45,921 nucleotides of DNA. Source: Chlorobiota bacterium. Its GTDB lineage: Bacteria > Bacteroidota > Ignavibacteria > OLB7. The position numbers and the translations under genes are program-made. Below the pieces are notes generated by a model. The model saw only the letters and a list, made by a program, of their open reading frames with translations. It was not told the DNA's origin and did not search any database. Where the stretch lies: assembly GCA_021296135.1 (NCBI GenBank), contig JAGWAZ010000009.1:20530-66450 (forward strand), in the 5' to 3' direction. Shown piece by piece: positions 4,994 to 43,149 of the stretch; the stretch's first letter is position 1, and each line of letters starts with the position of its first letter.

Positions 4994-5770
4994 CTAACTC
5001 ATTATTGCCCTGAATAACAACGGCCTCGACGGCGCTGCATCAAGCGCAAAGGGTGGGACCTGAAGGTTCAGCAGGTAGAGTCCATCTTCAACCTTATCAG
5101 GGACATAAATCATCTCGGTAATTGTTCTTCCATCACTTGTGTCACCTTCAATCGAACCAGTTTCCGGCAGGTTCCAGAAAATGCGATGAGCGGTCAACAA
5201 GGGATCGTCCTCACGATCGAGTGAGGGGAGATCAACGAGAAGGTGTTGAACTCCAAGCTCTCGGATGTATCGAGCAGCATCAGGGAACAGGTAGGGTGGG
5301 TTGTGTCCAGACCACTCAGCATGAGGTTTGGAGTCGTTGTTTGGAAGCGTGCGAACGATGAGTCCCTCGATATTCGAGTATCGATTTTTGAGTGTCGAAC
5401 GAAGAGCATCCGGGGTAACAGATTGGTTTCCGTCTTTGTCTTGCTCAAGGTGGATTGAGATCAGAAGTGCAGGAATGAAGCCGTCACGTAGTACTCGGTT
5501 AATGTAGATTCGATTTGTGCTTAGGTGGCCAACGCATTCGGTATGCGTACCGTTGCCGTGGGGATTCAATGTGACGGTTTCACAATTACAGCTTCCTCCT
5601 TGTCGAGTGTCTCCGATAAAATCACCCCCTCTGGCAACCACAGCTTCGGCTCTTGGTAGGTAAAACGCATTTGGTTGCTCGTTTCCAAATCTCAACGGAA
5701 TAGAGATATCGATAGGCCGTGAAGTGTCAGCGATGTAGAGAGAGTCATTTATGGTGAACGAGAGTTGCAA
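4994..5770 (-). CDS. Cyclase-family protein, probable kynurenine formamidase
   Basis: The protein is predicted to hydrolyse N-formylkynurenine to kynurenine, a role inferred from the operon. It carries the metal motif of the cyclase family (PF04199) as HGNGTHTECVGH, with ligand candidates His71, His76 and His82 and a Glu where many members have Asp. I start it at TTG 5770, giving MQLSFTIND..., because GAGG lies eight bases upstream and homologous proteins begin with a similar strand before the conserved PIDISIPL. The frame is open to a TTG at 5860, but that extension overlaps the neighbouring pseudogene. The start codon lies inside the left arm of a 12-bp inverted repeat (5767-5778). This is the longer Bacteroidota-type cyclase, not the short KynB of proteobacteria, so the substrate is not certain. 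Confidence 0.75.
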   Translation of the reverse strand: MQLSFTINDSLYIADTSRPIDISIPLRFGNEQPNAFYLPRAEAVVARGGDFIGDTRQGGSCNCETVTLNPHGNGTHTECVGHLSTNRIYINRVLRDGFIPALLISIHLEQDKDGNQSVTPDALRSTLKNRYSNIEGLIVRTLPNNDSKPHAEWSGHNPPYLFPDAARYIRELGVQHLLVDLPSLDREDDPLLTAHRIFWNLPETGSIEGDTSDGRTITEMIYVPDKVEDGLYLLNLQVPPFALDAAPSRPLLFRAIMS

Positions 5771-5778
5771 TTTTCGAG
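5767..5778 (+). repeat. Left arm of 12-bp inverted repeat flanking the four-helix-bundle remnant
   Basis: GCAATTTTCGAG here is the exact reverse complement of CTCGAAAATTGC at 6249-6260. The two arms bracket the broken four-helix-bundle gene and fill nearly the whole space between the ACMSD stop and the cyclase start. The TTG start of the cyclase gene (5768-5770) is inside this arm. Confidence 0.8.
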
Positions 5779-5819
5779 CCTCGATTTTCGATTTGCAAAT
5801 GTGCTTGACGAACGAATAA

Positions 5820-6173
5820 CTACCTGTTGTTTCGGGCAGTTTTTTTTGACTGAACAACAATTGCTGTTAGTTCATATGCTTCGCGGATCAATCTTTGAAT
5901 CTCTGCTTGTTCCACAGTCCATAGTTCATCAAAAAAGTTCCAGCCAGAATTGCGATTTATCCGCTTCCTCTTTTAAATTCCAAGCTTTGCAATGAAGTCT
6001 GCTCTTGATTTTCCTCTACAGGCTGCACGATAGTTCGCGCCAACGGAAGTTCCGTTTCTCAGCAACTGCCTGCCAAGAGCCCAATACTCAGGTTTGCTCG
6101 GCAGTTTTGAACAAAAGTGAGTAATATCAAGAGCAAACTTCTTTGTTCTTTTCTTCGAGTCTCGTCGTTTCAT
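5820..6173 (-). pseudogene. Four-helix-bundle protein (23S rRNA IVP-like), frameshifted
   Basis: The first 66 codons from ATG 6173 encode the start of a four-helix-bundle protein, with recognisable pieces such as LPSKPEYWALGRQLLRNGTS and GANYRAACRGKSRADFIAKLGI. The frame then stops at 5973-5975. Adding one base there continues the family pattern in another frame (KEEADKSQFWLELF). Removing one base from the A6 run at 5931-5936 restores the first register through DELWTVEQAEIQRLIREAY to a natural TAG at 5820-5822. The gene therefore carries compensating -1 and +1 shifts, or sequencing indels. The family is best known from intervening sequences in 23S rRNA genes and has no assigned activity. It interrupts the kyn operon and is bounded by a 12-bp inverted repeat. 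Confidence 0.8.
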
Positions 6174-6248
6174 CAGGGCAATACGGGTTGATATTGGTGA
6201 GCCTAAATTCTATGTAGGGAAAAGTATCTATATCATACAAACAATTCA

Positions 6249-6260
6249 CTCGAAAATTGC
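6249..6260 (+). repeat. Right arm of 12-bp inverted repeat flanking the four-helix-bundle remnant
   Basis: CTCGAAAATTGC is the perfect inverted partner of 5767-5778. It lies six bases beyond the ACMSD stop codon (6267-6269), on the far side of the four-helix-bundle remnant. Confidence 0.8.
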
Positions 6261-6266
6261 CATTCG

Positions 6267-7310
6267 TCACTCTTGACTCGACATTCGGAAATTATTGGCC
6301 ACTCGCACTTCATCACTCGACATTCCAAGCCAATCAAGTGCTGTTTTCCAAAGCAACCGTTCTTTCGCTTCTTGTGTTAGTTCGCTCATTTCTTCAATCA
6401 TTTTTCCAGGGTGGTGCTCACCAAGTGGAAACGGATAATCGCTGCCGAGCATGATCCGTTTCTCACCAATCAAATCGAGCATGTAGTGAAGTGCTGTTGG
6501 ATCGTGGACGAGTGAGTCGAAATAAAGCACCGGCAGATACTCATGTGGTTCGGTTGTTGTGTGGAGCTGCACCAGATCGGGGCGAACGTGGAATCCATGT
6601 TCGATACGACCAAGTGTAATCGGAAAAGATCCACCACCATGAGCAAAGCAGAAACGGAGATTCGGGTAACGATCGAGAACTCCGCCAAACATAACCGAAC
6701 AGATAGCCCGTGAAGTCTCGGCCGGCATTCCGACAAGCCAGGGAAGCCAGTACTTTCGCATCTCATCCTTTCCCATCATATCCCAGGGGTGGACGAAGAT
6801 GGCGGCATCAAGCTCTTCGGCCGCCATATAGAACGGCTCGAACGATTCGAAGTCAAGATTCCAGTCGTTGACATGCGAACCGATTTCGACTCCTTGCAGG
6901 CCAAGCTCTTTCACACACCGCTCTAACTCTTTGGCTGCAAGATCAGGCGCTTGCATCGGTAGCGTTGCCAAACCGATAAATCTGTCGGGATAGTCGGTGC
7001 AGAGGCTTGCGATGTGATCGTTCAGGATACGACAGAGATCAAGTGTATCCTCAGGCTTGGCCCAGTAGCTGAACATGACAGGGACAGTGGAAAGCACCTG
7101 TATATCAACACCGGTGGCATCACATTCGCTCATTCTTGTAACCGGGTCCCAGCAGTTGTCCTGAATCTCACGGAAGTGGCGTCCATCAATCATCATCCTT
7201 GCACGGCAAGGGGCATGGTGTTCGAGCTGCAGCCAACCACCATACCCATAACGCTCGCGCAGGTTCGGCCAGTTCTCCGGAAGGATGTGTGTGTGGACGT
7301 CGATCTTCAT
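6267..7310 (-). CDS. 2-amino-3-carboxymuconate-6-semialdehyde decarboxylase (ACMSD)
   Basis: A zinc-dependent amidohydrolase-fold decarboxylase that turns 2-amino-3-carboxymuconate semialdehyde into 2-aminomuconate semialdehyde, committing the pathway to catabolism rather than quinolinate/NAD synthesis. The residues I know for the human enzyme fall at the same numbers here: His6 and His8 (VHTHIL), Arg47, His174 (FVHPWD), Trp191, His224 (FAHGGG) and Asp291 (GSDYPFPLGE). The N-terminus MKIDVHTHILPENWPNLRER is also very close to that of the animal enzyme. Family synonyms in bacteria include nbaD. The C-terminus carries about 15 extra residues beyond the usual WLGM end, read from low-complexity GACTC-rich DNA next to the inverted repeat, so the stop may have been displaced by an insertion. 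Confidence 0.97.
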   Translation of the reverse strand: MKIDVHTHILPENWPNLRERYGYGGWLQLEHHAPCRARMMIDGRHFREIQDNCWDPVTRMSECDATGVDIQVLSTVPVMFSYWAKPEDTLDLCRILNDHIASLCTDYPDRFIGLATLPMQAPDLAAKELERCVKELGLQGVEIGSHVNDWNLDFESFEPFYMAAEELDAAIFVHPWDMMGKDEMRKYWLPWLVGMPAETSRAICSVMFGGVLDRYPNLRFCFAHGGGSFPITLGRIEHGFHVRPDLVQLHTTTEPHEYLPVLYFDSLVHDPTALHYMLDLIGEKRIMLGSDYPFPLGEHHPGKMIEEMSELTQEAKERLLWKTALDWLGMSSDEVRVANNFRMSSQE

Positions 7311-7363: not shown

Positions 7364-7924
7364 TTATCCTGCTGGACCTGTATTCTCATTCTCATCTACA
7401 GCAACCGGTGCGGGTGGCTGAATCACCGTACTACAATTTTTGCAGGTGCGTGCATCTTCGTTGGCCCAGAAAGCATCGAAGACAGGTTTGAGTTGTGTTG
7501 TAATGTCGGTTAACTGCAGGAAATGCTCATGAAGCTTCTCCCCGCAGTTCTCACAGTACCAGACAAAGCCGTCAAGCTCGCCCTCATTCCGTTTCCGCTC
7601 CACAACCAACCCGATCGTGTTTGCCGGGCGTTGTGGCGAGTGCGGGATCCTAGGAGGGAGCAGGAAGACATCACCTTCTTTGATGTGGACATCTCTGAAT
7701 TCACCATCTTCAACGATCTTCAATGTAATGTCCCCTTCGACCTGATAGAAGAACTCCTCGCTCTCATCAACATGATAATCTTTGCGTGAGTTTGGTCCAC
7801 CGATGACCATGACTATAAAGTCAGGATTTTCCTCCTTCCAGAGCTGGTCATTACCGACCGGTGGTTTCAGCAGATGACGATGTTCGTCGATCCATTTGTG
7901 CAGATTAAATGATGTAAGTGACAT
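7364..7924 (-). CDS. 3-hydroxyanthranilate 3,4-dioxygenase
   Basis: An Fe(II) cupin dioxygenase that opens the ring of 3-hydroxyanthranilate to give 2-amino-3-carboxymuconate semialdehyde, the substrate of the next gene. The metal ligands His51 (YHVDESEEFF), Glu57 and His95 (RIPHSPQRP) and the substrate-binding Arg47 and Arg99 all sit at the positions known for the bacterial enzyme. A second, rubredoxin-like iron site is present as CENC (124-127) and CKNC (161-164), typical of the prokaryotic form. The length of 186 residues is standard. It lies 53 bases upstream of the ACMSD gene in the same operon. Synonyms are haaO and nbaC. Confidence 0.97.
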   Translation of the reverse strand: MSLTSFNLHKWIDEHRHLLKPPVGNDQLWKEENPDFIVMVIGGPNSRKDYHVDESEEFFYQVEGDITLKIVEDGEFRDVHIKEGDVFLLPPRIPHSPQRPANTIGLVVERKRNEGELDGFVWYCENCGEKLHEHFLQLTDITTQLKPVFDAFWANEDARTCKNCSTVIQPPAPVAVDENENTGPAG

Positions 7925-8061
7925 AGTAGTAGATTGGATAGTGGTTAGTAGATAGTGGTTTTAAAACTTAGTGTCTGAACGTTCGGTCGTGAACGATTAG
8001 GTCGATAGCCGTAGTCCGGTCCGTAATATCCTGATTCTGTTTGCCTCGTGAAAATCGAACT

Positions 8062-8850
8062 TTACTCTCCACTCGCAACACGAAACTCCACACTCCCCAA
8101 CTCGTCAACCATTGCCCGCACATGATTTCCTTTGTTAAGCGCCACCGCAGCAGTTGCTCCTCCGGCAAGGACTATCTGCCCGGCTTTCAGTCCCTGACCC
8201 CTTAGGGACGCCATGCGTAGAAGTTCAACAAGCGAGCGAAGCGGATGCTCGTAGATGGCCGAACTGTTCCCGATCTGTACTGGTTGTCCGTTGATCTCCA
8301 TTACAATTCCCAGGTTACCGAGGTTGACGTCGTCGATTTTCCTGACCCTTGAACCGAGAACAAAACCAGAGGCGGACGTGTTATCGGCGATAACATCTGG
8401 AAGAGTAAACTTGAAATCACGGTAGCGACTGTCAATGATTTCCAATGCAGCGCAGACTCCCTCAACTGCTTCGGCTGCTTCCGCATCAGTAACCCGGCCT
8501 TCGATGTTCTTTCCTATAATAAACGCAATTTCCGGCTCAACTCGTGGATGACATCGTCCTTCAAGTTGAATTGTACTTCCGTCGTTGATAATCATCCGGT
8601 CGGTTAACCGACCATAGATCGGTTCATGTACACCGACTTGCTCCATCTTGTCCCGACTTGTCAATCCCATCTTCATACCGACCAGCTTTTCGCCGCGGTC
8701 GAGACGCTGAGCTATCGAAGCTTCCTGAATTGCATACGCATCTGCAACATTGATCTGTGACGTCTTTTGCGTCAGTTGTTCGATTCTCTCCCCACGGGAG
8801 GCTGCTGTATCAACCAGGGCGGCAAGTTCCCTTATACGCTGTTCGTTCAT
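8062..8850 (-). CDS. 2-oxo-3-hexenedioate (4-oxalocrotonate) decarboxylase / 2-keto-4-pentenoate hydratase family
   Basis: A 262-residue member of the fumarylacetoacetase-like hydratase/decarboxylase family. Key segments are GMKMGLTSRDKM, the acidic metal site VEPEIAF with a later LEIIDSRYRDFKF, and IYEHPLRSLVELLRM. In the 2-aminomuconate branch of the kynurenine pathway, 4-oxalocrotonate released by the deaminase is decarboxylated to 2-oxopent-4-enoate; this is the likely job here (equivalent to nbaG/dmpH). The family also contains hydratases with near-identical motifs, so the context decides. It is the first gene of the minus-strand cluster and is divergent from the RodZ-like gene. Confidence 0.88.
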   Translation of the reverse strand: MNEQRIRELAALVDTAASRGERIEQLTQKTSQINVADAYAIQEASIAQRLDRGEKLVGMKMGLTSRDKMEQVGVHEPIYGRLTDRMIINDGSTIQLEGRCHPRVEPEIAFIIGKNIEGRVTDAEAAEAVEGVCAALEIIDSRYRDFKFTLPDVIADNTSASGFVLGSRVRKIDDVNLGNLGIVMEINGQPVQIGNSSAIYEHPLRSLVELLRMASLRGQGLKAGQIVLAGGATAAVALNKGNHVRAMVDELGSVEFRVASGE

Positions 8851-12342: not shown

Positions 12343-12400
12343 GGAGTCGAAGAGTCGAGAGTCAAGGGTCGAGAGTCGGGGTCAATCTGTCAACTATCCT
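12343..12400 (+). repeat. GAGTCGA/GAGTCAAGG simple repeats
   Basis: The spacer after radA contains several imperfect copies of GAGTCGAGAGTCAAGGGTCGAGAGTC-type sequence. Related GACTC/ACTCGA-rich sequence lies at 6249-6320 next to the inverted-repeat-bounded element. It is intergenic low-complexity sequence; function is unknown. Confidence 0.55.
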
Positions 12401-43047: not shown

Positions 43048-43149
43048 CAGAAGTTAGAAGATTTAAAGTTAGAAGTATGAAGTTAGCGGTTGGGAGTATT
43101 GCACCCTTTTCACACTTCTAACTTCACGAATCACACTTTTTAGTATGCC
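43048..43149. repeat. AGTTAGAAG / ACTTCTAACTTC simple repeats
   Basis: The spacer between fabH and fabD carries several copies of AAGTTAGAAG in one orientation (43051-43090) and ACTTCTAACTTCACG in the other (about 43114-43128). The same motif appears at 35310-35340. The two orientations can form a hairpin. It seems to be a dispersed low-complexity element. Confidence 0.6.

Follow-up and report, generated by a model that had tools for sequence, protein, structure and literature searches.

A decayed four-helix-bundle gene between inverted heptad arrays at an ACMSD-cyclase junction, and related elements in other bacteria

The window analyzed here, a stretch of 45,921 nucleotides from a Chlorobiota bacterium, contains between its ACMSD and cyclase genes a broken four-helix-bundle gene of the PF05635 family with an array of degenerate 7-bp units (heptads) on either side, the two arrays being inverted relative to each other. 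The element is real, it is an insertion, and it is a decayed member of a general class. We estimate a probability of roughly 60% that it represents a stand-alone S23/IVP element in decay, that is, a selfish PF05635 gene between inverted heptad arrays that its own protein recognizes. What carries this reading, all of it at the level of sequence, is the anatomy of the elements, the empty sites in relatives, the bias toward one orientation, the recurrence across phyla, the agreement of heptad type with the clade of the protein, and five pairs of intact genes under purifying selection.

The insertion at the ACMSD-cyclase junction

The whole element, consisting of the PF05635 gene and two heptad arms, occupies positions 5767-6325, with approximate outer edges. 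It lies on the minus strand, as do all of its parts and both host genes. Upstream in the operon sense is an amidohydrolase/ACMSD gene (6267-7310, PF04909) and downstream a cyclase gene (4994-5770, PF04199, with a weak match to arylformamidase), each identified by a profile match. The initial annotation described the gene between the arms as broken and placed it in the protein family of the open reading frames of 23S rRNA intervening sequences (IVSs), and our analysis bears out both statements. The reading frames and profile matches define a pseudogene (5820-6173) of the 'VGANYRAACR' clade with two frameshifts: its N-terminal half is in one frame, a middle piece, EEADKSQFWLEL, is in a second, and its C-terminal part is again in the frame of the N-terminal half. 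The gene matched PF05635 with E=5e-9 in a profile search, and the N-terminal half scored 35.5 bits against PF05635 (cut-off 33.8) and 49.1 bits against TIGR02436 (cut-off 24).

The arms were first noticed as a perfect 12-bp inverted repeat, GCAATTTTCGAG at 5767-5778 and CTCGAAAATTGC at 6249-6260. The match is exact, and the two stretches pair with each other in the predicted fold. As described at the outset, the right copy is 6 nt past the ACMSD stop codon (6267-6269), and the left copy carries the cyclase TTG (5768-5770). This TTG is in frame and aligns with the ATG at which the cyclase starts in relatives. The length of the arms had to be revised: the exact 12-bp core stands, but the arms are longer and imperfect (~5767-5830 and ~6249-6325). 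The 5' arm, upstream in the gene sense (6249-6325), is a degenerate heptad array, GAATGTCGAGTGATGAAGTGCGAGTGGCC...GTCGAGTCAAGAGTGACGAATGGCAATTTTCGAG, a direct repeat with an identity of 0.46 to itself at lag 7 (shuffle p=0.0002). The 3' arm (5767-5830), which reads GCAATTTTCGAGCCTCGATTTTCGATTTGCAAATG on the plus strand, is a similar array (lag-7 identity 0.42, shuffle p=0.0024). Because both flanks are strongly periodic at 7 bp, we take the 12 bp to be the part that matches best within two degenerate heptad arrays of greater length. The ACMSD stop codon and the last ACMSD codons fall inside the heptad DNA of the 5' arm.

The element is an insertion into an operon that lacks it in relatives. 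The gene order ACMSD-cyclase-kynureninase is kept in nine relatives, none of which has a four-helix gene at this position, and in eight of the nine the ACMSD stop and the cyclase start overlap as ATGA. In the window the junction holds an insert of ~0.5 kb with the frameshifted gene in the operon sense. The suggestions of a replaced cyclase start and a lengthened C-terminus of ACMSD hold: a TTG from the element's own arm is found where relatives have the ATG (MQLSFTI versus MIISFTI). In ACMSD, the residues that follow WLGM differ from those of relatives and are encoded by heptad DNA. In our reading, the element entered the stop/start junction in the operon sense and supplied a new cyclase start and a new ACMSD tail, and the window copy has lost its protein.

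Other junctions also occur in filled and empty forms. At nuoC/nuoD, several relatives are empty, with an overlapping TGATG or TAATG, and three are filled by an insert of 432-468 bp with arms. The nuoC/nuoD spacer of one genome (L139 in G021) retains only the 3' end of the gene together with the right arm and represents an intermediate stage of decay. At paaA/paaB within one genus, one genome (L360 in G045) is empty and reads TTAGCTTAA GGAGAAATTA ATG (TAA-GGAGAAATTA-ATG), and in three congeners (L357-L359) the gene is flanked by heptads that follow the stop codon immediately on one side and reach the ATG on the other. In these comparisons, which are between relatives and not between strains, the whole short spacer has been replaced, and no target-site duplication was seen at either junction at that distance. 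No transposition event was seen among the loci studied. Since the empty sites examined in relatives are without arms, the gene and its arms arrive together as a unit.

The elements sit close behind upstream stop codons and mostly run in the direction of the operon. Where arms are clear, the median distance from the upstream stop codon to the start of the 5' arm is +3 nt (within 10 nt at 55% of these loci), and the downstream start is a median of 15 nt beyond the 3' arm. With gene calls based on open-frame length and not on a gene finder, 35 elements in a broad set of loci are in the sense orientation and one is antisense between co-directional genes; in the window's class the upstream gene is co-directional at most loci, a similar bias. 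The antisense exceptions include some copies on cyanobacterial plasmids. For example, the four-helix genes on a Nostoc edaphicum plasmid (L285) and a Calothrix plasmid (L286) are antisense between two co-directional genes. A Calothrix plasmid pair that we considered as a recent duplication of the element was rejected because the shared stretch runs past the element.

Heptad arms and the four-helix protein family

Many bacteria carry genes annotated as 'four helix bundle protein' or 'S23 ribosomal protein', for which, to our knowledge, no function is known. A relative of these proteins has a solved structure (2GSC). PF05635 genes are present in 51 of 61 related genomes, and the window's genome has four, three of them broken. 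The other three in that genome are L001 (intact; 105 bits in the family profile search), between dcd and dnaG; L002 (broken), between cusB- and cusA-like genes; and L003/L004 (broken), beside pdxH. Inverted repeats can be found by eye at each of these, although not all score above the threshold. One IVP query of a phage collection gave no match.

The intact genes appear to be under purifying selection, a conclusion that rests on few pairs. Twelve pairs were compared, and five with dS of 0.06-0.57 were usable, with dN/dS of 0.11 (L024/L025), 0.14 (L016/L017), 0.01 (L034/L035), 0.09 (L194/L219) and 0.08 (L190/L200). The pair L068/L077 agrees with these (dN/dS 0.08 at dS 1.07). The remaining six were left out because their dS ranged from 1.4 to infinity (infinite in three), where zero or low ratios reflect saturation. 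Purifying selection would fit a protein with a function, either for the element or for the host.

Inverted arms are general at such genes outside rRNA. Arms were scored by reverse-complementing the downstream flank and aligning it with the upstream flank. For the 75 loci of the window's class the mean score was 36.3, versus 17.1 for shifted pairs, 17.3 for mismatched pairs and 19.9 in the direct orientation, and 73% of the loci but none of the shifted controls scored at least 26. For the broad set of 73 loci (from Bacteroidota, Bacillota, Planctomycetota, Acidobacteriota, Cyanobacteriota, Pseudomonadota, patescibacteria and others) the corresponding scores were 41.9 versus 17.6, 17.3 and 22.4, and at least 26 was reached by 78% of loci and 1.5% of shifted controls. 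The 28 loci of the window's own protein clade averaged 33.6 (control, 17.4). In the class and the broad set, the identity of an arm to itself at lag 7 is 0.37-0.42 versus 0.255, with harmonics at 14 and 21. Tandem 7-bp units are found both in the flanks in the window and as lag-7 peaks across loci, and complementary terminal repeats enclose the reading frame in the window and at most of the loci tested. Two kinds of observation had been named beforehand as telling against such an element, namely relatives with the same arms and no gene, and family copies with no flanking inverted repeat. The first was not encountered at the empty sites examined, which lack arms; the second was, in part, as clear arms are absent at about 20% of family loci.

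The initial annotation had missed that each arm is built of tandem heptads and that heptad type goes with protein clade. The heptad unit varies between loci and agrees between the two arms of a locus. A signature, NNTN[A/G]GT, is common to the units of 83 loci (3.49 bits versus 2.51 in a permuted control), whereas the signature of the window's clade is G[A/C]NGA[A/T][T/G]. In a leave-one-out classification between the two signatures, 70 of 83 and 15 of 16 arms were assigned correctly. The window's own arms are partly decayed and favor the model of their clade only slightly. Among non-orthologous loci, those with more similar proteins also have more similar units (Mantel rho 0.17, p=0.002), and in 19 pairs of different loci within one genome the units are no more alike than background. 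These patterns indicate that heptad type follows the protein clade and not the host genome.

Copies at the same junction bear on how arms change. At paaA/paaB, some species carry CAAATTA in both arms, and others carry CAAGTTA/CAGGTTT, likewise in both arms. The proteins of the two groups are only 54-58% identical, so the difference may stem from drift in place or from the arrival of another element, with no certain distinction between the two. We therefore no longer regard copies that share a junction but differ in their heptads as clean evidence for concerted change in place. The paaA/paaB set is a better case for such change than other same-junction sets. In two genomes, for example, elements between the same gene pair (L058 and L090) have proteins that are 32% identical and unrelated heptads, which suggests independent insertion at one junction or replacement.

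Maintenance of the arms and alternative origins

We suspect that the four-helix protein recognizes hairpins of its own heptads, in DNA or in RNA, and would be needed for the spread or upkeep of the element. The arms might be kept matched mainly by DNA-level copying from one arm to the other, and in the operon mRNA they could also pair as a long stem, setting the gene apart much as in the 23S rRNA IVSs that are cut by RNase III.

An alternative is that the element is an mRNA version of a 23S IVS, in which the arms are kept matched as an RNA stem whose cleavage by RNase III frees the IVP message and spares the operon. The protein family and the gross anatomy are those of the Coxiella IVS, which has a 28-bp terminal stem that is cleaved by RNase III, tandem GACAGAT heptamers upstream of the open reading frame, and an open reading frame that decays in place (PMC4990558). 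The sense orientation of the elements also agrees with this alternative, as does the pairing of the arms in the sense-strand fold at 89% of 112 loci. However, the arms pair equally well in the antisense fold (94%), and G.U wobble asymmetry, considered as a sign of selection on the sense RNA, gave a negative result: G.U-compatible mismatches had no sense-strand excess (112 versus 134, p=0.18). A very permissive alignment setting in this analysis leaned antisense and was set aside, as it aligns unrelated sequence. Selection on the arms at the RNA level is therefore not supported by these comparisons, and we consider this alternative rather unlikely. The lack of a G.U bias and the equal pairing of antisense arms favor DNA-level copying as what keeps the arms matched, although a stem may still form in the mRNA.

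A different alternative makes the heptad hairpins of the host primary, either as slippage microsatellites or as regulatory hairpins at gene junctions, with PF05635 genes merely inserting into them. Heptad arrays and hairpins that lack a gene occur commonly in genome G000 and in some others, and heptamer arrays have been reported in Xanthomonas (GGGAATC, often paired as inverted repeats, with 70-75 pairs) and Nostoc (GGGGA(T/C)T) (PMC4692102), in Beggiatoaceae (TAACTGA; PMC4679880) and in Geobacter (MTYCTGA; PMC2700814), with no link to S23/four-helix genes in the portions of these accounts that were available. Against this alternative, the empty sites of relatives that were examined contain no heptads, heptad type tracks the protein clade rather than the genome, and arrays are nearly missing from genomes without IVP genes. 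Away from PF05635 genes, there were 90 arrays in 1.41 Mb of 11 IVP-positive genomes and two in 0.78 Mb of six IVP-negative genomes, a difference with a genome-level p of 0.005 for stretches sampled by convenience and without phylogenetic correction. We judge it improbable that the hairpins came first.

Among IVP-positive genomes the rate of gene-less arrays ranges from 0 to 22 per 100 kb, with two genomes having none in the sample, and it does not scale with the number of PF05635 genes; in some genomes gene-less arrays outnumber gene-bearing ones. The window itself contains a gene-less inverted heptad hairpin of GAAGTTAG units between two co-directional genes (43049-43128) and heptad arrays at gene ends (12343-12386, 8060-8100 and 7915-7965), with GAGTCGA units after radA and further units at the junction of the hydratase and 3-hydroxyanthranilate dioxygenase genes.

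It is also conceivable that the element is an ordinary insertion sequence (IS) or a MITE-like transposon, with terminal inverted repeats recognized by a transposase in trans. An insertion with inverted ends, many dispersed copies and gene-less derivatives would be expected of both, and RAYT/REPIN and MITE systems similarly combine a few protein genes with many dispersed gene-less hairpins. In contrast to such systems, PF05635 is not a transposase family, and the repeat unit of the present elements is variable and periodic at 7 bp. The ends are degenerate heptads that differ between copies in one genome no less than between copies in different genomes, and our loci showed no fixed terminal sequence, no transposase and no target duplication. 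This origin thus seems very unlikely. Finally, the 12-bp match considered alone is weak, as a score of 24 or more is also obtained for 1.4% of the shifted and 5% of the mismatched controls, but that the repeat arose by chance around a decayed small gene between operon genes is hardly credible given the heptad periodicity of both flanks, the empty junctions in relatives, and the related heptads at L328, the closest protein relative of the window gene.

Relation to known elements and significance

As described, the rRNA IVSs with an S23/IVP open reading frame (in Leptospira and Coxiella) resemble the present elements in their PF05635 protein, in a reading frame inside a stem of terminal inverted repeats, and in a size of ~0.43-0.5 kb. 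In contrast, the present elements are at stop/start junctions between protein-coding genes, and their arms consist of inverted heptad arrays, which come in many types. The window element has no match in Rfam, and no 23S motif was found in the loci tested for rRNA-located copies. We set the element apart from the IVSs because it is located between the ACMSD and cyclase genes, and not inside a 23S rRNA gene as defines an IVS, and because heptad arms are a new defining trait. Calothrix heptanucleotides are another heptameric repeat array, and they and the Xanthomonas, Nostoc, Beggiatoaceae and Geobacter arrays are, like the present arms, intergenic degenerate heptads. In our elements, unlike in the available accounts of those arrays, the heptads bracket a gene and their type goes with its protein. 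The Avd proteins of diversity-generating retroelements form a related four-helix-bundle family. L006 matches the Avd family PHROG 3206 (E=1.6e-12), whereas L001 scores 16.3 bits against the NCBIfam Avd model NF033474, below its cut-off of 80; by profile, Avd is a distant relative.

We found no account of this class of element in the open-access literature that was searched. The class of heptad-armed four-helix inserts, widespread in bacteria, is apparently undescribed, and its novelty is provisional. We speculate, tentatively and at less than even odds, that stand-alone PF05635 genes constitute a distinct selfish class of heptad-palindrome elements, in which the four-helix protein propagates hairpins of its cognate heptad and gene-bearing and gene-less copies occupy junctions in many phyla. 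The rRNA IVSs and several heptamer repeat families could then be special cases or remnants of this class.

Most of the copies tested are bracketed by heptads that arrive with the gene and match it in type, and an orphan protein family thereby becomes a testable mobile or selfish element. Such an element would link the rRNA IVSs with the heptamer repeats known from separate reports on Xanthomonas, cyanobacteria, Beggiatoaceae and Geobacter. It also makes a biochemical prediction, that each four-helix protein would bind the hairpin of its own heptad.
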